Part shown: piece after piece, positions 1-12,557 of the stretch | Layout of the letters: each line of letters starts with the position of its first letter | How positions within the stretch are numbered: position 1 is the stretch's first letter | Virus record (IMG/VR): IMGVR_UViG_3300026078_000096 | Span: 1-21,264 of that record | Length of the DNA: 21,264 nt | Strand: one strand, 5' to 3' | DNA from: a virus | Made by a program: the position numbers and the translations under genes | The notes under the pieces: generated by a model | The model's database searches: none | What the model saw: only the letters and a program-made list of their open reading frames with translations | Told to the model about the DNA's origin: nothing

Positions 1-149
1 CCTTTATTTCTTCGTATCTACACTCTATACAAACTATAATAATATATTCTTTTTTATTTGGAAGTGGTTCCCACACAAATGCCGCATTTTCTTTTGTAAG
101 AACATATGTCCTCCAATCCCCGCATTAGAGCATCTGTTACATATATCAT
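1..149 (-). CDS. Unknown gene at left edge, partial, with an apparent +1 frameshift in a G run
   Basis: An ATG at 149-147 overlaps the stop of the helicase gene as ATGA, which suggests translational coupling. In that frame the reading stops after 31 codons (TAA at 56-54). If one base is dropped from the four-C run at 118-121 (GGGG on the coding strand), the frame continues open to the window edge; the joined protein would begin MIYVTDALMRDWRTYVLTKE and go on with a normal-looking mix of aromatic and charged residues. The alternative frame has no start codon of its own between the upstream stop at 127-125 and a GTG well inside it, so it does not look independent. A sequencing error, a true pseudogene or a slippage site would all give this picture. 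Function is not recognisable from about 48 residues. Confidence 0.35.
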
Positions 150-1372
150 GCATCCTCTATCTCCTTTTTGATTTCATCATAAGATTTATTCTGTTTAATC
201 ATTTCAAATGCTTTTCTATCCACACCGCTAGCAACAATATCATAATAATTAACAACATTCCGTTGGCCGATTCTATGAAATCTATCTTCACTCTGTGCCC
301 TTTCTGTACATGAGAATGTACGTGAATAATATATGACTTCACTACAATTTGTTAATGTGACTCCCACATTCATTGATTGCATTGTAGCGATTAGTATTCT
401 AAATTTGTTTTCTTTGAAATCTGTCAAAACTTTTTCTTTTTGACTAGAAGTTAAATCACCATGAAATTCATGTGGCTTTAAATATAAATTCTTTTCTGTT
501 GAGAAAAACTGTTGAATAAACTCAATAGACTTTCTAAACGCTACATAGATAACAATCTGATTGTTAGAAGGAATTGAGTCTATTAAATCTTGCAAAACAA
601 TATGTTTTTCTGAAGTAGGGTCTATCATTTCTACAACTTCACCAGTCGATTTATCTTCAATAAAAAAACCAAATCCTTCCTGAGCTTGCATTTTATGAGC
701 TACATGAAGACCCTGGTGAACTCGAGTCCCCTTACAACCGAACTCGTGATAGATTTTTTCTGGGAGGTCTAAGCAGTCGACTTTAAGCCTTCGCTCAGAC
801 ATTGGTGCAAGCATCTTTAAGAATTCATCTTCATTTCGTGATTCGTCTTTTTGAAATTTATGGGTCTTTACTCGCATGTACCGCTGTCTGAAGTTTCGGT
901 AATCTGAGTAAGCGTTGGTTGGATCGAGGCAAACGAGATGAGTGTAGAGATCGATAATGTTACGATTGCCGATTGGTGTCCCAGTCAAAAGAATGACACG
1001 CTCTGCTCCGATGCATGTGTTTACGACGGCTTCAGTGCGCTTTGCTCGACGATTTTTAATATAGTGAGCTTCGTCGACGATAATCATTTTTGTTTTGCGA
1101 GCTGGAACAGGCAGTCTCCAAAAAGTTTCGTAACTGTAAATTTTGTAGAAACTTTCAAATTTTGACCATTTTGCAACCTCTTTTGCCCAATTTGGTTGCA
1201 AAAAAGAGGGGCAAACAACAATTACACTTTTTCCAAATTGCATTTTTGATAAAATATAATCCGCGGCTAAAATTGCTGAAATCGTCTTTCCCAAGCCTTG
1301 TTCGTGATATAACGCGTATCTCTTATTCTCGATACATTTTCGTATAGCTGTTTTTTGATGTTCGTAAAGCAC
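146..1372 (-). CDS. SNF2/superfamily 2 DNA helicase
   Basis: ATP-dependent DNA translocase of the SNF2-like superfamily 2, 408 residues, as found in many phage replication or recombination modules. Visible motifs in order: Walker A EQGLGKT (24-30), VDEAH motif II (99-103), LTGTP motif III (129-133), and the C-terminal lobe ending in a motif VI with R-AQSEDRFHRIGQ, where HRIGQ lies at 366-370. The length is that of the bare two-lobed core, without the extra domains of chromatin remodellers. The start is GTG at 1372-1370, preceded by a GAGG ribosome site about 6 nt upstream; no better upstream start is apparent. It is read opposite to the late genes, so it likely belongs to the early or middle region that continues to the left. 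A TTGACA at 1428-1423 could be its -35 box, but the matching -10 (TAGCTT) is poor. Family assignment is secure; the exact role in replication is inferred. Confidence 0.92.
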   Translation of the reverse strand: MLYEHQKTAIRKCIENKRYALYHEQGLGKTISAILAADYILSKMQFGKSVIVVCPSFLQPNWAKEVAKWSKFESFYKIYSYETFWRLPVPARKTKMIIVDEAHYIKNRRAKRTEAVVNTCIGAERVILLTGTPIGNRNIIDLYTHLVCLDPTNAYSDYRNFRQRYMRVKTHKFQKDESRNEDEFLKMLAPMSERRLKVDCLDLPEKIYHEFGCKGTRVHQGLHVAHKMQAQEGFGFFIEDKSTGEVVEMIDPTSEKHIVLQDLIDSIPSNNQIVIYVAFRKSIEFIQQFFSTEKNLYLKPHEFHGDLTSSQKEKVLTDFKENKFRILIATMQSMNVGVTLTNCSEVIYYSRTFSCTERAQSEDRFHRIGQRNVVNYYDIVASGVDRKAFEMIKQNKSYDEIKKEIEDA

Positions 1373-1582
1373 AAAGACCTCGTTTGAATTGTTGTTAGCA
1401 AGCTAGCGTATTTATGAGTATTTGTCAACTTTTCAAAATGATTATATTTTTTAGAGAAATTTTCCGAAAGTGTATGTGAAAACCAAAAATAGATAAAATA
1501 TCAAATATATCAATTGGTAGTGATTCTGAAAGGTGTGATATTTTGTCCCAGTGTCCCAGTACCGTTTGAACTGGGACAGGAG

Positions 1583-1689
1583 CAACTGGGGCACTGGTAC
1601 AGCATTGGGAGAGTAAGATAAGTTTAGTGCACTTCTCTATTTCCTGGAAAACAACTGGGGCACCTATTTGTGCATGGGAGAGAAGGATA
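1583..1689. repeat. Imperfect direct repeat, copies 1583-1620 and 1652-1689
   Basis: Both 38-nt copies begin CAACTGGGGCAC and end TGGGAGAG followed by an AAGATA or AGGATA element, with a diverged middle. The copies are 69 nt apart. They make up the left-hand part of the repeat region that is not explained by the inverted pairs. Confidence 0.55.
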
Positions 1690-1700
1690 TCTAAGCGTTT

Positions 1701-1833
1701 GTCCCAGTGTACCAGTTAGTTGGACCCTTTTTATCTAATAAGAGTTAAAAAAATAAAAAAGAAATAGGAAAGAAGAAAAATAAAAAATAAAATATTATAT
1801 AAAAAAGAGTCCAACTAACTGGTACACTGGGAC
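1701..1833. repeat. Inner inverted repeat, arms 1701-1732 and 1802-1833
   Basis: Bases 1701-1725 and 1809-1833 are perfect reverse complements over 25 bp. After one mismatch the pairing goes on for six more base pairs into T-rich and A-rich flanks. The loop of about 69 nt is the A-rich tract without C. A stem this long with no mismatch in 25 bp will not arise by chance in AT-rich DNA. Confidence 0.85.
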
Positions 1834-1872
1834 ACGAATTAAAGTTATACTATCAGAATATGAATAAGTAAG

Positions 1873-1943
1873 TGCCCCAGTTGCCTGTCCCAGTTCAAAA
1901 CGGTACTGGGACAGCTGGTACACTGGGACAGGCAACTGGGGCA
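1873..1943. repeat. Perfect 22-bp hairpin, arms 1873-1894 and 1922-1943
   Basis: The arm beginning TGCCCCAGTTGCC is repeated as its exact reverse complement 27 nt further on. It lies 10 nt beyond the stop codon of the lipoprotein gene, so on the minus strand it would form a strong hairpin in that transcript's 3' end. There is no run of U after it in either direction, so it is not a standard intrinsic terminator. Its left arm is also part of the outer inverted repeat, so the two structures exclude each other. Confidence 0.8.
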
Positions 1944-1953
1944 GATGAGATGA

Positions 1954-2472
1954 TTAAGGGAGATTCCAATTTGGCTCGTTTGCCTTGGCTTGTGCAAAAA
2001 AGACTTGTTTTGCGGCTTCAAAAAACTGTGGGGAAGGAACATAAACAGAAAAGTGCATGATGTTGTTTATATCAGTTTCTATAGCGTCAGGAAGATGATA
2101 AGCACATCGTCCCATTTCATGAAGAAAGATTTTGTTTTTAAAATCTTCGGAAGAGATTTTTTCAAAAATAGGGTCGACTGTAATTTCTCGAGTGAAAGAC
2201 GTCACTCCAGTTTTATTTTCAGTGATGTTACATTGAGTCACTCCGATCGCTGCTTCTCGTGTCACAACGAATGCAGGACTGTGAGCAATGCGAATTGAAA
2301 CAAGATGCACATCCCCGTATCCCACATTGTATTTGTCAGCTTCTTGTTTAAAATTTTGGTAATAAGGTTGAAGTTCAGCGTCTACCATAGGAATTGTTGG
2401 ATTTGGTGAGCTTCCATCCTTTCCACAACTGATAAAAAATGGGAGTGATAAGACCCATAATAGTTTTTTCAT
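1954..2472 (-). CDS. Small lipoprotein with degenerate metalloprotease-like motif
   Basis: A 172-residue predicted lipoprotein. Residues 1-15 form a signal peptide (MKKLLWVLSLPFFIS) before Cys16, a lipobox with an unusual Phe at -3, then a polar linker. Residues 117-123 read LHEMGRC, followed by His126 and NIM at 137-139. This is the layout of the small matrixin-like proteins whose consensus is HELGHC...H...SIM, but the second zinc ligand of HExxH is Arg122 here, so peptidase activity is doubtful. The start at 2472 is chosen because CAAAGGAG (2488-2481) lies 8 nt upstream; an in-frame ATG nine codons earlier overlaps that ribosome site. It is the second gene of a two-gene unit with its own promoter, opposite to the virion genes, which fits an accessory cargo gene acting in the host envelope. 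That role is inferred. Confidence 0.75.
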   Translation of the reverse strand: MKKLLWVLSLPFFISCGKDGSSPNPTIPMVDAELQPYYQNFKQEADKYNVGYGDVHLVSIRIAHSPAFVVTREAAIGVTQCNITENKTGVTSFTREITVDPIFEKISSEDFKNKIFLHEMGRCAYHLPDAIETDINNIMHFSVYVPSPQFFEAAKQVFFAQAKANEPNWNLP

Positions 2473-2509
2473 AAGTTCATCTCCTTTGTATTTATTCATC
2501 CTTGAAAGT
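2468..2509 (-). repeat. Duplicated translation leader, copy next to the lipoprotein gene
   Basis: These 42 nt match 2685-2726 at 38 positions, with the first 21 nt (2468-2488) identical. The repeat covers the start codon, the CAAAGGAG ribosome site and the sequence just upstream, so both genes of the unit are initiated by nearly the same leader. Confidence 0.85.
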
Positions 2510-2746: not shown

Positions 2747-2775
2747 AATATAGTTTAAAAATTTTATTAAGTCAA
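2747..2775 (-). promoter_or_regulatory. Sigma70-type promoter for the two minus-strand accessory genes
   Basis: On the minus strand TTGACT (2775-2770) and TATATT (2752-2747) are separated by exactly 17 nt, each with one mismatch to consensus. Transcription would begin near 2740, about 50 nt before the start codon at 2689. This is the best promoter in the window. Confidence 0.75.
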
Positions 2776-2975: not shown

Positions 2976-3147
2976 TCGCATTTTTGTCGCATTTTTATAT
3001 ATTTTTGTAAGTATAAGTAAGATAACAATCTTGTCGCATTTTCTCATTTTTAATGGTATAGGTACTTTATTTTTGAGAAGAAAATGCGACTAAAATAGTT
3101 ATGGTTCTTATGTAGATGGGAAAAACCTTGCTTTTGTCGCATTTTTT
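2976..3147. promoter_or_regulatory. Array of five TCGCATTTT sites, probable regulator binding sites
   Basis: TCGCATTTT occurs on the plus strand at 2976, 2987, 3034 and 3137 and inverted at 3081-3089. The first two are 11 bp apart, about one helical turn. The copies at 3034 and 3081 face each other within an imperfect inverted repeat (GTCGCATTTTCT against AGAAAATGCGAC). Four of five are followed by extra T or preceded by TTG, giving TTGTCGCATTTT as the fuller form. Position just upstream of the late operon suggests binding of an activator or repressor. Confidence 0.55.
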
Positions 3148-3162
3148 ATGTTTAAATAAAAG
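3134..3162 (+). promoter_or_regulatory. Candidate late promoter
   Basis: TTGTCG (3134-3139) and TAAAAG (3157-3162) are 17 nt apart, each matching four of six consensus bases. The -35 element overlaps the last TCGCATTTT site. A weak core promoter overlapping a binding site is typical of an activator-dependent late promoter, but the match alone is poor. Confidence 0.3.
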
Positions 3163-3199
3163 GGTTATCATTTTATTTATTTTTATGAAAAGGATAAAA

Positions 3200-3793
3200 A
3201 TGAGTCTTTCTACGCGAACATGGACTAAAATAAGAAAATTATATGAGGATGGAGCACCTCCATCTTACATATCTTCTATTCATGATGTGAGTGTGTCACA
3301 GATATGGCGACGAATAAAAAAAGAAAATTGGGAGAAACCGATTGAAATGAAGCCGTCTTCTATTACAGATGCTGCATTTCAAAAAGCGGCTGAAGTGCTT
3401 GAGCGTGCTGAAGTGCTTGAAATTGAGAACACAGAGAAAGAATCAGAAACAGTTTTCGAATTACGTAAAAAAGCGCGAGCAGTACAATCTGAGTTACTTG
3501 ATTTAATATTAGAAGCAAAAATCGCGATGAGTGCGTTTATTAAAGCGCACCCAGATGGCAGGTATATTAAAAAAGATGATGAAAAAGGCACAACATACGG
3601 TCTTATTTCGGAGATATTTAGCCCCATGGCAGCGTTATTGAATGCCAGTGATGTTATCACTCAGATTCAAAGACCAATTAATTTAACAACCAACACTCAG
3701 ATTAATCAAAATAATTCTCAATTAGGAGACCAAGTATCTTCTACTACCCCTCCCATTACAATTGAATTTTTGCCTGTCGAAGCGTCTCAATGA
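3200..3793 (+). CDS. Terminase small subunit
   Basis: DNA-recognition subunit of the packaging motor, 197 residues. Residues 1-45 (MSLSTRTWTKIRKLYEDGAP...) form a helix-turn-helix of the type found in phage small terminases, in which the GAPPSYISSIHDVSVSQIWRR segment would hold the two DNA-contacting helices. Residues about 60-115 are a long Glu/Lys/Ala-rich helix suited to oligomer formation, and the tail ends in a TIEFLPV strand that could contact the large subunit. The start at 3200 is preferred to upstream ATGs at 3116 and 3185 because AAAAGGA lies 5-6 nt before it and the extra residues do not look conserved. The stop overlaps the large subunit start by 4 nt. Function follows from the fold and the position directly before the large terminase. 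Confidence 0.75.
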   Translation: MSLSTRTWTKIRKLYEDGAPPSYISSIHDVSVSQIWRRIKKENWEKPIEMKPSSITDAAFQKAAEVLERAEVLEIENTEKESETVFELRKKARAVQSELLDLILEAKIAMSAFIKAHPDGRYIKKDDEKGTTYGLISEIFSPMAALLNASDVITQIQRPINLTTNTQINQNNSQLGDQVSSTTPPITIEFLPVEASQ

Positions 3794-5082
3794 AAATTAA
3801 GTGGAGGATTCCCGCAAAAGGAATAGAATTTTTTAAAACAAAAAAAATGTATCAAGTTTTACATGGTGGACGCTCATCAGCTAAGACTAATATGGTGTTA
3901 AAAAAATTACTTAATATCGCCCTAGAACAGACACTACCAGGACATATTGTATGCGCACGTGAATTTCAATCATCGCTTGCAACTTCTACATATGCGGAAT
4001 TAAAGCATATGATTTATGAAGATAATCTATTGCATTTATTTGATGTTAAATATGACCATGTTCTATGTAAGAAAAATGGATTGAAATTTATATTTAAAGG
4101 TTTAGCTCGCGACATAATGCAAATAAAATCTATTCCTAATATTGTTGCTTGTTTTGTAGAAGAAGCAGAAACAATTAGTCGTGATTTATGGGATATTTTA
4201 GACCCTACTCTTCGGCAAGCTGGGTGTCAGTTAATCATTGCGTTTAATCCTCGCGAAGAACAGAGTGCTACTTATCAAATGTGGTTAATAGATCCAAAAC
4301 CCGAAGAAGATATTTTCAGACTTGAGATGAATTATTATGATAATCCGTTTAATTCTGATGTAGTTTTAAAGAAAATCGCATGGCTAAAGCAATATGACTA
4401 TGCCAAATATGAGCATATTTATCTTGGTAAAGTTATTAGTATGTCTGAAGATGTGATTTTTAAAAATAAATTTAAGATTCTCGATTTAGGTTTTGTAGAA
4501 GAAAACGGGTTTTATTACAGAACTAAGGCTGCTATTCCTCGAAATGAACGGATTTATTTTCTATATGGAATGGATTTTGGATTTAGCACTGACCCAGCTG
4601 CTATGATCGAAGTTTGTTTTCCAGATGACGACACTATCTATATACATAGAGAGCATTATGAGCATCAGCTTTTGCCCACACAGTATATGAATGTTATTCA
4701 AACAAGTTTCGGTGAGAGAGAAAAACTACACGGCAAGTGGCGGGGTGATGAATCGCGTCCCGACACGATTGCTCAACTCGCTTATGACGGTTTGCACATT
4801 GAAGCAGCACCCAAGGGAAAAGGTTCAGTTGAAGCAGGAATTCAATACCTTCTTGGAAAAAACATAATAGTACATCCCCGTTGCAAGAATTTCATTTTTG
4901 AATGTTTTAATTATAAATACAAAAAAGATAAAAACACTGGTATCATCACAACTGACATCGTAGACGCTCACAATCACGGTTGGGATGCTTTACGTTATGC
5001 TTTATGTGAACAAATCGCTGCAAATGGTAGAAAACCTATAAAAGTTAATCCTGCTGTGTGGCAACAATTAGGAATTTATTAA
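3790..5082 (+). CDS. Terminase large subunit, PBSX-like
   Basis: Packaging ATPase and nuclease, 430 residues, the normal length of PBSX/Terminase_3-type large subunits. Walker A is GGRSSAKT (26-33), Walker B is CFVEEAE (121-127), and the coupling segment IIAFNPREE follows. The C-terminal RNase H-like nuclease shows its acidic residues at MDFG (Asp262), a RGDESRPD segment (318-325) and DAHNHGWDALRYAL (Asp392, His396, Asp399). The ATG is overlapped by the small-subunit stop (ATGA), so the two are translationally coupled. It cuts concatemeric DNA and drives it through the portal encoded next. The PBSX-like class often goes with headful packaging, but the mode is not readable from this sequence. 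Confidence 0.93.
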   Translation: MKIKWRIPAKGIEFFKTKKMYQVLHGGRSSAKTNMVLKKLLNIALEQTLPGHIVCAREFQSSLATSTYAELKHMIYEDNLLHLFDVKYDHVLCKKNGLKFIFKGLARDIMQIKSIPNIVACFVEEAETISRDLWDILDPTLRQAGCQLIIAFNPREEQSATYQMWLIDPKPEEDIFRLEMNYYDNPFNSDVVLKKIAWLKQYDYAKYEHIYLGKVISMSEDVIFKNKFKILDLGFVEENGFYYRTKAAIPRNERIYFLYGMDFGFSTDPAAMIEVCFPDDDTIYIHREHYEHQLLPTQYMNVIQTSFGEREKLHGKWRGDESRPDTIAQLAYDGLHIEAAPKGKGSVEAGIQYLLGKNIIVHPRCKNFIFECFNYKYKKDKNTGIITTDIVDAHNHGWDALRYALCEQIAANGRKPIKVNPAVWQQLGIY

Positions 5083-8486: not shown

Positions 8487-9653
8487 ATGCAATTCGATAG
8501 CAACAGAACAAAAGACGAATTCGGATATTTGACTGTTACTAACTGTGTTTTGACTGGTGAAGATGTTGCTTTGTATTATGGGTATGAAGTCCCTAATTAT
8601 CAAAAACACAAGCTTGACCCGAAAAAAGTTTATCGCGTTTATAGACCCCGAGAAGAGATTGAAGACTCTGATTTTTCTAATAAGCCGCTTCTTTCTCAGC
8701 ATATGGATTTCTCTGCAACTGACTACAAAGAAAAATTTGTAGTTGGGACAACTGGAGAAAGTCGAGATGAAGGTAGTGAAAAACTAGCTACTGTTGTTTT
8801 TTGGAAACAGTCAGCAATTGATGAACTAGAAAAAGGTACGAAAAAGCATCTGTCATGTGGGTATCTCTATGAACCTGTGATTGAAAAAGGCTCCCATAAT
8901 GGAATGCCCTATGATATCAGAATGACAAAAATTAGAGCAAACCATGTCGCGATGGTGAATGACCCAAGATACAAACCGGCCACGGTGGCCGATGAAAACT
9001 CCGTAGAAAAGGGAACAAAAATGAAGTTTTTTTGGCAAAAAGACAAAGAGGTCGATGGCCTTTTAACTTTAGATGAGGCTTTTGATGCCCACAAAGCTAT
9101 TTTAGACAATGACAAAATGTCAGAAGATGAAAAAGCTGAAGCAATTGAAAAAGTCAAATCTAAAGCTAAGCGTGTAAAAGGCGAAGTTGAAGACGAGAAG
9201 AAAGTTAAAGATAAGAAAAAAGTCAAAGACTCAGACATGGAAGATGATGAGCCGACTATGGATAAAAAAGCAATGGATAAGAAAGATTGCATGTCTAAAG
9301 ACGCTGCTTCTGTTGTAGATGTTGCTGCTCTTGCTGAAAAAATTGCTGAAGAAAAGATTCGTAAATTCAAACAAGAATCGATGGCTCTTGATTCTGCTTT
9401 TGCTGAATACGAAAGAGTTTGTGGAAGAGTAAACAAAATGGCCTTTGATAGTGCTGAATCTGTTTTGGATACTATCATTAAGAATCAAAAAAGAAATCCT
9501 GAAGGCAAAACTTTTGAGCAAAAACAAGCGATGGTTGAAGCCTTCTCTAGTGTAAAAAGTTACGTTTCGCCAAAAGTGACTTTGGATAGCAACTCTATAC
9601 CTAAAGTTACTATGAATGCTGATTTTCGTTCATTTTTAGAAAGAAGGAATTAA
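8487..9653 (+). CDS. DUF2213 prohead protease with scaffold-like C-terminal part
   Basis: A 388-residue protein. Residues 1-165 match DUF2213, seen as a capsid maturation protease in phages with a DUF2184 capsid: an opening FGYLTVTNCVLTGEDV, then YRVYRPREEI, NKPLLSQHM (His72), KKHLSCGYLYEP (Ser123 in the LSCGY motif, the likely nucleophile) and IRANHVAMV (His153). From about 175 to 285 the chain is extremely rich in Lys, Asp and Glu with repeated KKVKD and MDKK units, and the end is helical, as expected of an internal scaffold that is digested when the head matures. A nested start at codon 179 may give the scaffold alone. The decoration and capsid genes follow at once. Confidence 0.82.
   Translation: MQFDSNRTKDEFGYLTVTNCVLTGEDVALYYGYEVPNYQKHKLDPKKVYRVYRPREEIEDSDFSNKPLLSQHMDFSATDYKEKFVVGTTGESRDEGSEKLATVVFWKQSAIDELEKGTKKHLSCGYLYEPVIEKGSHNGMPYDIRMTKIRANHVAMVNDPRYKPATVADENSVEKGTKMKFFWQKDKEVDGLLTLDEAFDAHKAILDNDKMSEDEKAEAIEKVKSKAKRVKGEVEDEKKVKDKKKVKDSDMEDDEPTMDKKAMDKKDCMSKDAASVVDVAALAEKIAEEKIRKFKQESMALDSAFAEYERVCGRVNKMAFDSAESVLDTIIKNQKRNPEGKTFEQKQAMVEAFSSVKSYVSPKVTLDSNSIPKVTMNADFRSFLERRN
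9021..9653 (+). CDS. Probable nested scaffold protein from an internal start
   Basis: Met179 of the protease gene (MKFFWQKDKEVDGLLTL) is preceded by AAAAGGGA, with about 6 nt to the ATG, a usable ribosome site inside a coding region. It lies precisely at the boundary between the protease domain and the charged scaffold part, and would yield a 210-residue scaffold. Nested scaffold genes of this sort are known for lambda C/Nu3 and related phages. Use of this start here is inferred. Confidence 0.42.
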   Translation: MKFFWQKDKEVDGLLTLDEAFDAHKAILDNDKMSEDEKAEAIEKVKSKAKRVKGEVEDEKKVKDKKKVKDSDMEDDEPTMDKKAMDKKDCMSKDAASVVDVAALAEKIAEEKIRKFKQESMALDSAFAEYERVCGRVNKMAFDSAESVLDTIIKNQKRNPEGKTFEQKQAMVEAFSSVKSYVSPKVTLDSNSIPKVTMNADFRSFLERRN

Positions 9654-9657
9654 TAAC

Positions 9658-10203
9658 ATGGCAGTTTATGCAGCTGGGCAGCAGATTGCTCAAAATCCTA
9701 ATCCATACCAAGTCGGTGTACCCACTCAAGCTTTGCTTGACGGCTACACTTTCGGAAGCATCGCTCTAAATGATTTAACCGTTGGTAATCCTTGTTTTTA
9801 TACAGGCATTGCAGACCAAACTGTACAAGCACTTGGTAACTACTCTGCAGGGATTGGTGGTGTATTAGCGGGTGTCGTTATGCGTTCTAACGCAAGTGCG
9901 ATGGCATTCGGCGATTCTGTACTTGGTTTTTCAACAACTATTAGTGCGGGTAGCAATGTTCAAGTTCAAACTCGCGGCAGTGTTCCTGTTCCAATTACCA
10001 CTTGTTCTAGTACTTTCGGCTCTCCTGTTCGCGGCGATGACGTTTATGTGAATTACGCAACGGGAACTTGGGTAGTTGTCGGCTTGGGTGGAACACCTCC
10101 ATCTAACACAGCTAAAACCAATTTCAAAGTTGGAAAAGTTTACTCGAGTTGGTCATCTGGTGTGCCAGTTGAAATTACAAATACTCAAAATGCGGGAGCT
10201 TAA
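9658..10203 (+). CDS. Head decoration / structural cement protein
   Basis: A 181-residue Gly, Ala, Ser and Val-rich beta protein of the phage cement type: it begins with PNPYQVGVPTQALLDGYTFG, has short repeated strands, and a GDDVYVNYATGTWVVVG segment typical of these trimeric spikes that clamp the capsid surface. AAGGAATT lies 6 nt before the start. Its place between the protease and major capsid genes is the usual one for decoration proteins. Assigned on composition, pattern and position. Confidence 0.68.
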   Translation: MAVYAAGQQIAQNPNPYQVGVPTQALLDGYTFGSIALNDLTVGNPCFYTGIADQTVQALGNYSAGIGGVLAGVVMRSNASAMAFGDSVLGFSTTISAGSNVQVQTRGSVPVPITTCSSTFGSPVRGDDVYVNYATGTWVVVGLGGTPPSNTAKTNFKVGKVYSSWSSGVPVEITNTQNAGA

Positions 10204-10205
10204 AG

Positions 10206-11303
10206 ATGAATCTAGATAACATGAGCGAGCACGATTTTTTACAGATGCTCGACAAAGATTTTGGTATTAAATTTGAAAGTGGCTATACTCCGGTTGTTGC
10301 TGACTCTAACCATAGTTTTAGAGAAAAAGCAAATCAACTTGTTGGTGACGTAGACACATATACCTATAACCCAAATTCTAATGGCGTGCCTGGTTGGTAC
10401 ACTTTGGTCAACATCAATAAAATTATTGACCAGCTATTGCCTGTTCGGCGATATGAACAAATTGGTGGACCGCTTCAATATGGTGGCTTCACTACAAATA
10501 AAGCTCAATACGCGATGATTGGCCTTGAGGGTCAAATTGAGCCTTACACTGATTACGGTAGCACTTTAATCTCTGACATTAATGAAACATTCCCAACCCG
10601 CGATGTTTATCGTGGTCAAACTGTAATTCAATACGGTGATCTAGAAGTTGCAACCCTTGCAGAAGCTAAAGTTGATGCAGTTTCTCGTAAACAATATTCT
10701 GCAGCGATGCAAATTGCTATCGCACAAAATAGATTATTTTTCTACGGAAATATCAATGGCGCAGGCGCATTTGTTTCACAAATTTTTGGTCTTTTGAATG
10801 ACCCTCAATTAAACGCTGCAACTCCTGCAACCAACGGCTCCTCAGGTTCTCCCTTGTGGTCTGTTAAAGCTGCGAATACTGCAACGGGTGCAAATGATAT
10901 TGCGAATGATGTTATTGTTACTGCAATGACTGTTATGCAAAATCAAATGGGTGGAAATGTTGAACTCGGTGCAAAATATAAATTATGCGTGCCAACTGCA
11001 GCTGTTTCTTATATGAATTCAACCAACTCCTTTGGTTTGAATGCTACTGCAATTATTAAAGCAACTCTTCCAGGTCTAGAAATTGTTTCTACTCCTGAAT
11101 ATAACACCCTTAAATCTTTTCAATTAATTGGCCCAAGCCCACAAGGTGGCGACATGGTGGCTGATTTATTTACTTACAAATTACGTGGACATACCCTTGT
11201 GCCCCAAATGTCTTCTAAGAGACAAAAATGGTCATTTGGTAGTTCAGGCTGCGCAATATTTCAATATGCGCCAATCGTAACAGTATCGGGGATTTTAGCA
11301 TGA
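10206..11303 (+). CDS. Major capsid protein, DUF2184 family
   Basis: Forms the head shell with the HK97 fold; 365 residues. Recognised by the DUF2184 pattern: an N-terminal arm, then GWYTLVNINKIIDQLLPVRR, GLEGQIEPYTDYG, a region with QTVIQYGDLEVATLAEAKVDAVSRKQYSAAMQIAIAQ split into the long spine helix, FFYGNINGAGAF, and a C-terminal beta domain ending in SGCAIFQYAPIV. The first residues (about 1-40) could be trimmed by the protease. It starts 2 nt after the decoration gene stop, with GGGAG about 6 nt upstream. The most abundant virion protein, so strong translation is expected. Confidence 0.88.
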   Translation: MNLDNMSEHDFLQMLDKDFGIKFESGYTPVVADSNHSFREKANQLVGDVDTYTYNPNSNGVPGWYTLVNINKIIDQLLPVRRYEQIGGPLQYGGFTTNKAQYAMIGLEGQIEPYTDYGSTLISDINETFPTRDVYRGQTVIQYGDLEVATLAEAKVDAVSRKQYSAAMQIAIAQNRLFFYGNINGAGAFVSQIFGLLNDPQLNAATPATNGSSGSPLWSVKAANTATGANDIANDVIVTAMTVMQNQMGGNVELGAKYKLCVPTAAVSYMNSTNSFGLNATAIIKATLPGLEIVSTPEYNTLKSFQLIGPSPQGGDMVADLFTYKLRGHTLVPQMSSKRQKWSFGSSGCAIFQYAPIVTVSGILA

Positions 11304-11668
11304 GTTTTGTTTTTAGTCGTTCACCAATTGGCCATCAGTTTTCAATTATCCAAAACGGTATTGAGAATGTTTATGTAATTAAAGGAACAAATTCACATCA
11401 AGTTCTTACTGGTGGTGCAGAAGTTCCTTTTAAAACTGAAATGGAAGAGTCTGTATTTAATGCAATTAAAGCAAAATATGTTGACCATATTGGTTTATTC
11501 GGTGGAAAAGACCCAATCAGCGGAAGAACATTAGACGCTCAAATCTATTTAGCGAAAAATGAATCTGAAGCTAAAAAGAAAATGGATGATAGTAAGCCAG
11601 TTATTACACAAAACGAAATGGTTTCTAAAGTCACAGGTATTTCGAAATTTAAAGATGAAAGAGAGTAA
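11300..11668 (+). CDS. Hypothetical protein following the capsid gene
   Basis: A 122-residue protein I do not recognise. The first 95 residues look like beta strands (FSIIQNGIENVYVIKG); the rest is helical and charged with a Lys-rich end. It is coupled to the capsid gene by an ATGA overlap and precedes the connector gene, so a structural or head-completion role is likely by position only. Confidence 0.65.
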   Translation: MSFVFSRSPIGHQFSIIQNGIENVYVIKGTNSHQVLTGGAEVPFKTEMEESVFNAIKAKYVDHIGLFGGKDPISGRTLDAQIYLAKNESEAKKKMDDSKPVITQNEMVSKVTGISKFKDERE

Positions 11669-11671
11669 AAA

Positions 11672-12091
11672 TTGGCGATTCCAGCTTTTGATATAAATTT
11701 ATTTAGAGCTCAGTACCCGATGTATGCAAATATACCGGATGCTGTGCTTATTAATTTATGGATAGAAGTTGATGAAGTTGGTACTCCAATTGTTTCTTTA
11801 CTTCCCATTGATAAACAAGAGCATTATTACTATGTGGTTGAAGCTCATCTTGCTGAATTATGGAATCGCGGACCTGGTGCTGGTGGAATTGTTACAGAAG
11901 CTAAACAAGGCACTGTTGACGGCAAATTCTTTGTTGATGAATCAAATGCTTTAATTTGGTGGAATCAAACCGCTTGGGGCGCGAAGATTGCATATTTAAT
12001 GAAGATGCATGGTGGGTTTCAATCCGTCAATACTTGTCAAAATTTCGGTTCAGTTTTTGGAGGGTGCTACTATGGCTCTCTCTACTATTAG
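11672..12091 (+). CDS. Head-tail connector protein, DUF4054 family
   Basis: A 139-residue adaptor ring protein that binds under the portal. The DUF4054 pattern is visible: FRAQYPMYANIPDAVLINLW, a helix with HYYYVVEAHLAELW, then AGGIVTEAKQGTVDGKF and a closing helix ending in Tyr and Gly-rich residues. The start is TTG at 11672, with GAGAG about 7 nt upstream, as no ATG fits the conserved N-terminus. It overlaps the next gene by 20 nt. Confidence 0.75.
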   Translation: MAIPAFDINLFRAQYPMYANIPDAVLINLWIEVDEVGTPIVSLLPIDKQEHYYYVVEAHLAELWNRGPGAGGIVTEAKQGTVDGKFFVDESNALIWWNQTAWGAKIAYLMKMHGGFQSVNTCQNFGSVFGGCYYGSLYY

Positions 12092-12557
12092 CGGCGGTGA
12101 GAATTTAAAAAAATTTTTAGGCAAAGTTAAAAACCAAACTGGACAAATTGACGCAGGATTCTTTCCAGAGTCTATTTATGATGATGGAACTCAAGTGGCC
12201 CAAGTGGCTTTTGATATGGAATATGGAAAAATAAATTTTGGTTTAGATGCAGAAAAATATGGAGAGATAATCCCTGCTCGTCCATTTATGCAAAAAACTT
12301 TTGATGAAAATAATAAAAAATGGCGACAAGAACTCATTAATATTATTTATGCTCAAAAAGAAAACATAGATGTTTTACAAGCTTTACGTGTAGTTGGTTT
12401 TGTAGTTAAAAGAGATATTCAAGAAACAATTAGCTGGTTCGCAAGAGAAGGAACTCCTAGAAACGGTCCTAAAGTTATTAAATTAAAAGGATATGATTCG
12501 CCTTTAATTTGGACTGGTAAAATGCAAGAGTCCGTTAACTATGTGGTGAAAAAATGA
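12072..12557 (+). CDS. Neck / head-tail completion protein, HK97 gp10-like
   Basis: A 161-residue protein resembling HK97 gp10 and Mu gpG-type morphogenesis proteins. Key segments: VAQVAFDMEYGK, then IIPARPFMQKTFDENNKKW with the RPFM motif, and the closing SPLIWTGKMQESVNYVV, corresponding to the usual L..TG.L..S. The start at 12072 is chosen because GGAGG lies 7 nt upstream; a longer frame to 12009 has no ribosome site and lies fully inside the connector gene. It lies in the neck block between connector and terminator. Confidence 0.75.
   Translation: MALSTISGGENLKKFLGKVKNQTGQIDAGFFPESIYDDGTQVAQVAFDMEYGKINFGLDAEKYGEIIPARPFMQKTFDENNKKWRQELINIIYAQKENIDVLQALRVVGFVVKRDIQETISWFAREGTPRNGPKVIKLKGYDSPLIWTGKMQESVNYVVKK

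Follow-up and report, generated by a model that had tools for sequence, protein, structure and literature searches.

A 400-base array of short repeats in viral DNA of 21,264 nucleotides (IMG/VR record IMGVR_UViG_3300026078_000096; the full stretch is called the window) very probably serves as a start site of DNA replication, of a type known from parasitic phage satellites. The best reading, to which a probability of roughly 0.8 is assigned, is an iteron origin bound by the DUF5906 primase-helicase of the phage and displaced from the gene of this protein. If the reading is true, sequence alone would be enough to recognize origins and their initiators, which matters for tailed phages known from metagenomes alone, and the competition of phages and satellites for origins becomes testable. 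Plain coordinates refer to the window, and L and G numbers denote other contigs and phages in the analysis (Table 1).

Anatomy of the repeat array

The array consists of 16 octamers matching TG[TC][CA]CCAG in 1544-1943. The first-pass annotation, made from the same stretch, counted about eight TGTCCCAG/CTGGGACA octamers; exactly eight perfect copies are present in 1544-1930, a ninth is located at 977, and eight close variants (TGTACCAG, TGCCCCAG) complete the set. The expectation for the whole window is about 0.24 exact octamers, and across 300 Markov shuffles a 400-bp cluster never contained more than one. The octamers are often arranged head to tail, with a period of 8 bp. The inner arms, described at first as a perfect 25-bp inverted pair (1701-1725/1809-1833), are indeed perfectly complementary, but over 26 bp (1700-1725/1809-1834), and 97% of positions match when they are extended to 33 bp. 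The outer pair (1552-1593/1873-1913) matches except for one extra T and two extra bases, which accounts for the three unmatched bases reported for it. The core between the facing dimers includes a plus-strand run free of C (1736-1810), which, as annotated, is there and with 75 nt is the longest in the window; taken alone it is mildly unusual, since shuffled sequences gave a mean of 48.5 and a maximum of 77 nt. Inside this core, 1728-1802 are the 75 bp of lowest stability both in the window and in the 39-kb contig discussed below. No gene runs across the array region, in which stop codons occur in all six frames.

Because its inverted repeats are read as one strand, the array region folds as a single long hairpin, with z = -14.8 when compared to shuffled sequence. 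A fold so much better than that of shuffled sequence could point to a structured RNA or a bidirectional terminator, in which the long hairpin acts as transcribed RNA. However, the inverted repeats explain the fold, neither an Rfam match to the array region nor a terminator-like site at the array was found, and copy number, order, and spacing of the repeats vary among phages, which fits binding sites rather than one fold; such an RNA is extremely improbable.

The same element, 99.99% identical over 17.9 kb, is found in a separate 39,333-bp contig and also in a 13,390-bp contig. It recurs in separate contigs of the same phage and therefore is no assembly artefact. A mobile repeat of the repetitive extragenic palindrome or miniature inverted-repeat transposable element (REP/MITE) type, considered from the beginning as an observation that would speak against an origin, was rejected: there is one copy in the window and in the 39,333-bp contig, no match to the element among 50,697 phage records, no meaningful match in plasmids, and no whole-element match elsewhere.

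Table 1. Features of the window, of the 39,333-bp contig (G001), and of named phages carrying arrays.
Feature	Position	Strand	Remarks
Whole iteron array	1544-1943	.	16 TG[TC][CA]CCAG octamers, both orientations, around an A-rich core; proposed origin
Outer left iteron set	1544-1601	.	TGTCCCAG x2 tandem, CTGGGACA, CTGGGGCA, CTGGTACA
Lone octamer	1655-1662		CTGGGGCA
Inner left facing dimer	1700-1715	+	TGTCCCAGTGTACCAG; in perfect inverted arm 1700-1725
A-rich core	1716-1818	.	103 bp, 82% A+T, between facing dimers; proposed melting site
Inner right facing dimer	1819-1834	-	CTGGTACACTGGGACA; in perfect inverted arm 1809-1834
Outer right iteron set	1873-1943	.	TGCCCCAG, TGTCCCAG, CTGGGACA, CTGGTACA, CTGGGACA, CTGGGGCA
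SNF2-family helicase gene	146-1372	-	SNF2-rel_dom, Helicase_C; phrog_62; adjoins array
Gene at the other side of the array	1954-2499	-	No family match; lipoprotein-like signal at start (by eye)
Best promoter-like site of leftward early genes	2747-2775	-	TTGACT-17-TATATT
Second, weaker array	2976-3145	.	Five TCGCATTTT copies, both orientations, between early promoter and terS
Gene for 917-amino-acid DUF5906 primase-helicase	9644-12397 of G001, window orientation	-	
GaryLarson array	Gap beside primase-helicase gene		TGTTGCAG x9
Bacteroides F2 array	Gap beside primase-helicase gene		CGTTTAC x9
SA2P array	Gap beside primase-helicase gene		GATGCAA x7
LfeSau array	Gap beside primase-helicase gene		TGTAACA x9
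IPP38 array	Gap beside primase-helicase gene		CTACCGA x7
U5 array	One small gene between primase-helicase gene and array		CTGTCCC x6
BcepNY3 array	5' of primase-helicase gene		TCTGTCA x7

The same iteron beside primase-helicase genes

The proposal of a phage replication origin, already made in the first-pass annotation, is supported by other, unrelated phages, in which the iteron recurs next to genes of primase-helicases. When 2.9 million viral contigs were scanned with the exact 17-base dimer TGTCCCAGTGTCCCAGT, without use of gene information, 27 loci were found, 25 of them in other phage contigs. At 16 of these 25 loci, a span of 500 bp contains 7-24 octamers, in both orientations with few exceptions. 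In 13 of the 25, one end of the array is 12-57 bp 3' of a gene for a primase-helicase, VapE-like (PF05272) or DUF5906 (PF19263) (L175, L177, L178, L180, L182, L184-L188, L192, L195, and L198); in L176 the distance is 239 bp, in L189 the array overlaps the gene end, and in L183 and L196 it is located 5' of the gene. The VapE domain is present in 17/25 of these records vs 1/36 control records, which had been retrieved for other purposes (Fisher 3e-8), and DUF5906, to which the primase of the window phage belongs, is above the cut-off in the records of L186, L182, L183, and L196. A VapE relative matches the solved chain 7pds ("Similar to D. nodosus vapE") with E 2.5e-54. Facing dimers enclose cores of 87-133 bp in the window and in L175, L177, L180, L184, L186, L188, L190, L192, and L198. 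The closest look-alike of the window is L186, with a DUF5906 primase, TGTCCCAG dimers, and a core of 83% A+T. Cores in GC-rich phages that carry this iteron are not rich in AT (34-57% AT); some of them alternate purine and pyrimidine (gcgcgtatacgcgtgcgc) and are Z-DNA-prone (L175 3424-3510, L198 2660-2760, L176 4390-4440).

Arrays with other letters are located in the non-coding gap adjoining the primase-helicase gene of six named phages, whose records were sampled along a list of VapE relatives. The gene order in GaryLarson and F2 is primase-helicase, array, VRR-NUC, and helicase, so the array neighbours the helicase module there too. No clear array was seen in the sampled Javan58 record. A further scan with the TGTTACAG dimer gained little, giving few new array loci (L223, L230) beyond known relatives. 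A chance pattern match revealed two more phage contigs with 11 ACTTGACA/TGTCAAGT octamers per array (L018 10098-10510; L114 4388-4800). In L014 (5940-6190), the 3' side of a Prim-Pol/PriCT-2/DUF3987 primase gene directly adjoins an array of TGCTACAC octamers that flank an AT core; here the layout is found with a further primase family.

The position of these arrays also bears on an operator, that is, on a phage regulator which would bind the octamers so as to regulate expression of the SNF2 helicase gene or of the early operon, the core being a promoter region. The array is located directly upstream of the SNF2 helicase gene, short sites in both orientations are common in operators, and weak promoter-like sites occur nearby; as a set, such sites are not in excess of the shuffled expectation. 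However, 16 symmetric sites across 400 bp are atypical of operators, no promoter-like site is present within 1544-1943, and in other phages the same iteron is mostly placed 3' of primase-helicase genes, which makes an operator quite unlikely.

The array in the phage genome and its candidate initiator

The 39,333-bp contig G001 (L107+L108) is read here in the window orientation. Its leftward early genes encode the 917-amino-acid (917-aa) DUF5906 primase-helicase, a family A DNA polymerase, a 282-aa protein without family match, a DUF2800/RecB-like exonuclease, an endonuclease, and the SNF2 helicase; the rightward late genes encode terminase, portal, head, sheath, tape measure, and baseplate proteins. 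The array (23,013-23,413 of G001) is located at the switch from the former to the latter. The cumulative GC skew, suggested at the outset as a check, is lowest at 22,215, at a distance of ~0.8 kb to the array, and so does not place the origin elsewhere. With eight exact octamers it is the densest short-repeat array of G001; the runner-up, the second array, has five copies and the others have at most four.

The first-pass annotation set the origin beside a helicase gene. The SNF2 gene does adjoin the array, but its product is probably not the initiator, and the DUF5906 protein is a better candidate. The latter falls into primase families of PHROGs, and its helicase domain matches the solved chains 6k9c/6k9e ("Primase") with E 1e-9. 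It is proposed that the initiator, most likely this 917-aa protein, binds the octamers as iterons on both sides, and that, by way of the two facing dimers, a pair of helicase assemblies is oriented towards the A-rich core, which would then melt. The helicases would load on the opened strands, with replication starting at the core and proceeding probably in both directions.

The search for arrays in related phages, also suggested earlier, revealed arrays of the same frame with other core letters. Relatives whose SNF2 helicases are 55-57% identical have such an array at the early-late junction, composed of TGTTACAGT in G008/G009 (L031 4376-4779; L029) and of TGTTAGAGT in G003 (L111 9108-9480); the skew minimum of G003, at 9,378, falls within its array. 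G008/G009 retain the early module and have late genes of another type, so the array travels with the early module. The contig of another relative, G2, ends before the position expected for the TGTCCCAG array. Beside the array of L031, a perfect 31-bp inverted repeat (4214-4293) consists of two divergent strong promoter-like sequences (TTGACA, TATATT), with a similar copy at ~4842. In G003, four consecutive, closely similar genes of Gly-Ser-Asp repeat proteins are found between the array and the helicase gene (L111 6338-8050).

Several observations weigh against an origin read by the DUF5906 protein. The array is ~10.6 kb from the gene of its proposed initiator, and the gap 3' of that gene in G001 has no iterons, for which reason an origin 3' of the phage's own primase gene was rejected. 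The C-terminal DNA-binding domain of the DUF5906 protein was not matched to its VapE or L186 counterparts in profile comparison (L186 vs VapE gave a weak 26% probability and the window protein vs VapE 1.5%), and the structure model of the 917-aa protein, built from 3 sequences only, has a predicted local distance difference test (pLDDT) score of 40, too poor for use. C-terminal domains are more alike in pairs sharing an iteron, but their helicase domains are too, which confounds this comparison. Several array contigs are closely related prophages, so the independent cases are about ten, in about ten distinct primase lineages, rather than 25. No clear array was seen among the sampled records of Lactococcus 1358, BV283P3, KPP12, and phiWae15. 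The skew turn is weak evidence, consistent with an origin, since skew tracks divergent transcription. Finally, the second array of the window corresponds in position to the arrays of relatives G003 and G008.

This last point raises the question of whether the second array is the real origin, the TGTCCCAG array being auxiliary (a second origin, copy-control, or partition site, for the same or another protein), somewhat like ori and crr of P4. Its place is also kept in G2, where the homologous array has eight ATGCAAA copies. However, there are just five copies in the window, and the letters differ, GTCGCATTTT in the window vs TTTTGCATTTT in G2, even though the two primases share 79% identity and hardly differ in the C-terminal region. 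The primase is therefore no obvious reader of the second array, which is probably read by another factor. As to a partition site, no ParA/ParB-like gene was found among the phage proteins scanned. A role of the second array as the real origin is unlikely, and the TGTCCCAG array is retained as the proposed start site. A second array with both orientations is likewise found at L109 338-560.

Some further features of this region are worth noting. A 45-bp direct repeat, 89% alike (2465-2509/2682-2726), is located at the starts of two consecutive minus-strand genes and resembles a shared leader or promoter-proximal signal. The mechanical start of terS (3116-3793), at 3116, falls within the second array, and the ATG at 3200 is a likelier start. 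A genome-collection scan for hosts gave only distant SNF2 matches.

Comparison with known origins

Origins of iteron plasmids have one-sided direct repeats and depend on RepA-type initiators and the host helicase. The window array resembles them in having repeated putative initiator sites beside an AT-rich, proposed melting region (PMC4980987). However, none of the features named first was seen here: its iterons are found on both sides of the core and in both orientations, and no RepA family was found among the phage proteins scanned. The ori and crr of P4 contain octamers in either orientation, to which a primase-helicase initiator binds, the origin sites being apart from each other. The letters of the P4 octamers differ from those of the window array, and P4 is a satellite, whereas the window phage is not. 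Replication of P4 depends on alpha and its cognate site (PMC6092414). In Cch2 of the staphylococcal cassette chromosome mec (SCCmec), a D5-type helicase binds, by its C-terminal domain, repeats directly downstream of its operon, but these are only three 5-nt direct iterons without mirrored sets (PMC7581432).

The closest layout is that of the phage-inducible chromosomal islands (PICI), including the Staphylococcus aureus pathogenicity islands (SaPI). The first-pass annotation knew no named repeat family for the array and considered it a possibly undescribed element; the letters TGTCCCAG are indeed unnamed, but PICI/SaPI origins are known to have this layout (PMC6092414). Every PICI origin has an AT-rich, potentially melting region with one set of iterons on either side, such origins are located directly 3' of the initiator gene, and pri-rep-ori segments replicate autonomously (PMC6092414). 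In the initiators of SaPI, PICI, and SCCmec, the C-terminal domain of the helicase recognizes a short-iteron origin downstream of its own gene (PMC7581432). The window array shares facing dimers, outer sets on both sides, and a 103-bp core of 82% AT; in both systems iteron letters vary between elements and a primase-helicase initiator is associated (PMC6092414, PMC7581432), for which the 917-aa DUF5906 protein of the window phage is the candidate cognate. In contrast, the array is not immediately 3' of the initiator gene, as it is in the 13 other phages, its carrier is a tailed phage and no satellite, as the late genes listed above indicate, and the AT-rich core is absent from GC-rich phages with this iteron. 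Because of its position and its carrier, the window array is not filed as a PICI origin, and it is by analogy that it would work like one, in binding and in replication.

No paper on VapE with iterons was found, which is a weak absence, as most subscription papers were outside the search. Among contigs classed as viral, the layout was found with about ten primase-helicase lineages that appear to be distinct, and six named phages have arrays beside genes of this kind. This suggests a much wider distribution of such start sites than is stated in the accessible literature. A tentative generalization, to which somewhat less than even odds are given, is that satellite-type mirrored iteron origins are a general class in tailed phages rather than a mark of satellites, in which TGTCCCAG is read by primase-helicases of two families, VapE and DUF5906. 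Origin and initiator could then pass, by exchange or hijacking, from one unrelated phage or satellite to another, and the origin could become separated from the gene of its initiator. When compared to the published satellite origins, the sequences indicate that their layout is shared by phage contigs, including the window phage, in which it appears detached from the gene of its candidate initiator.
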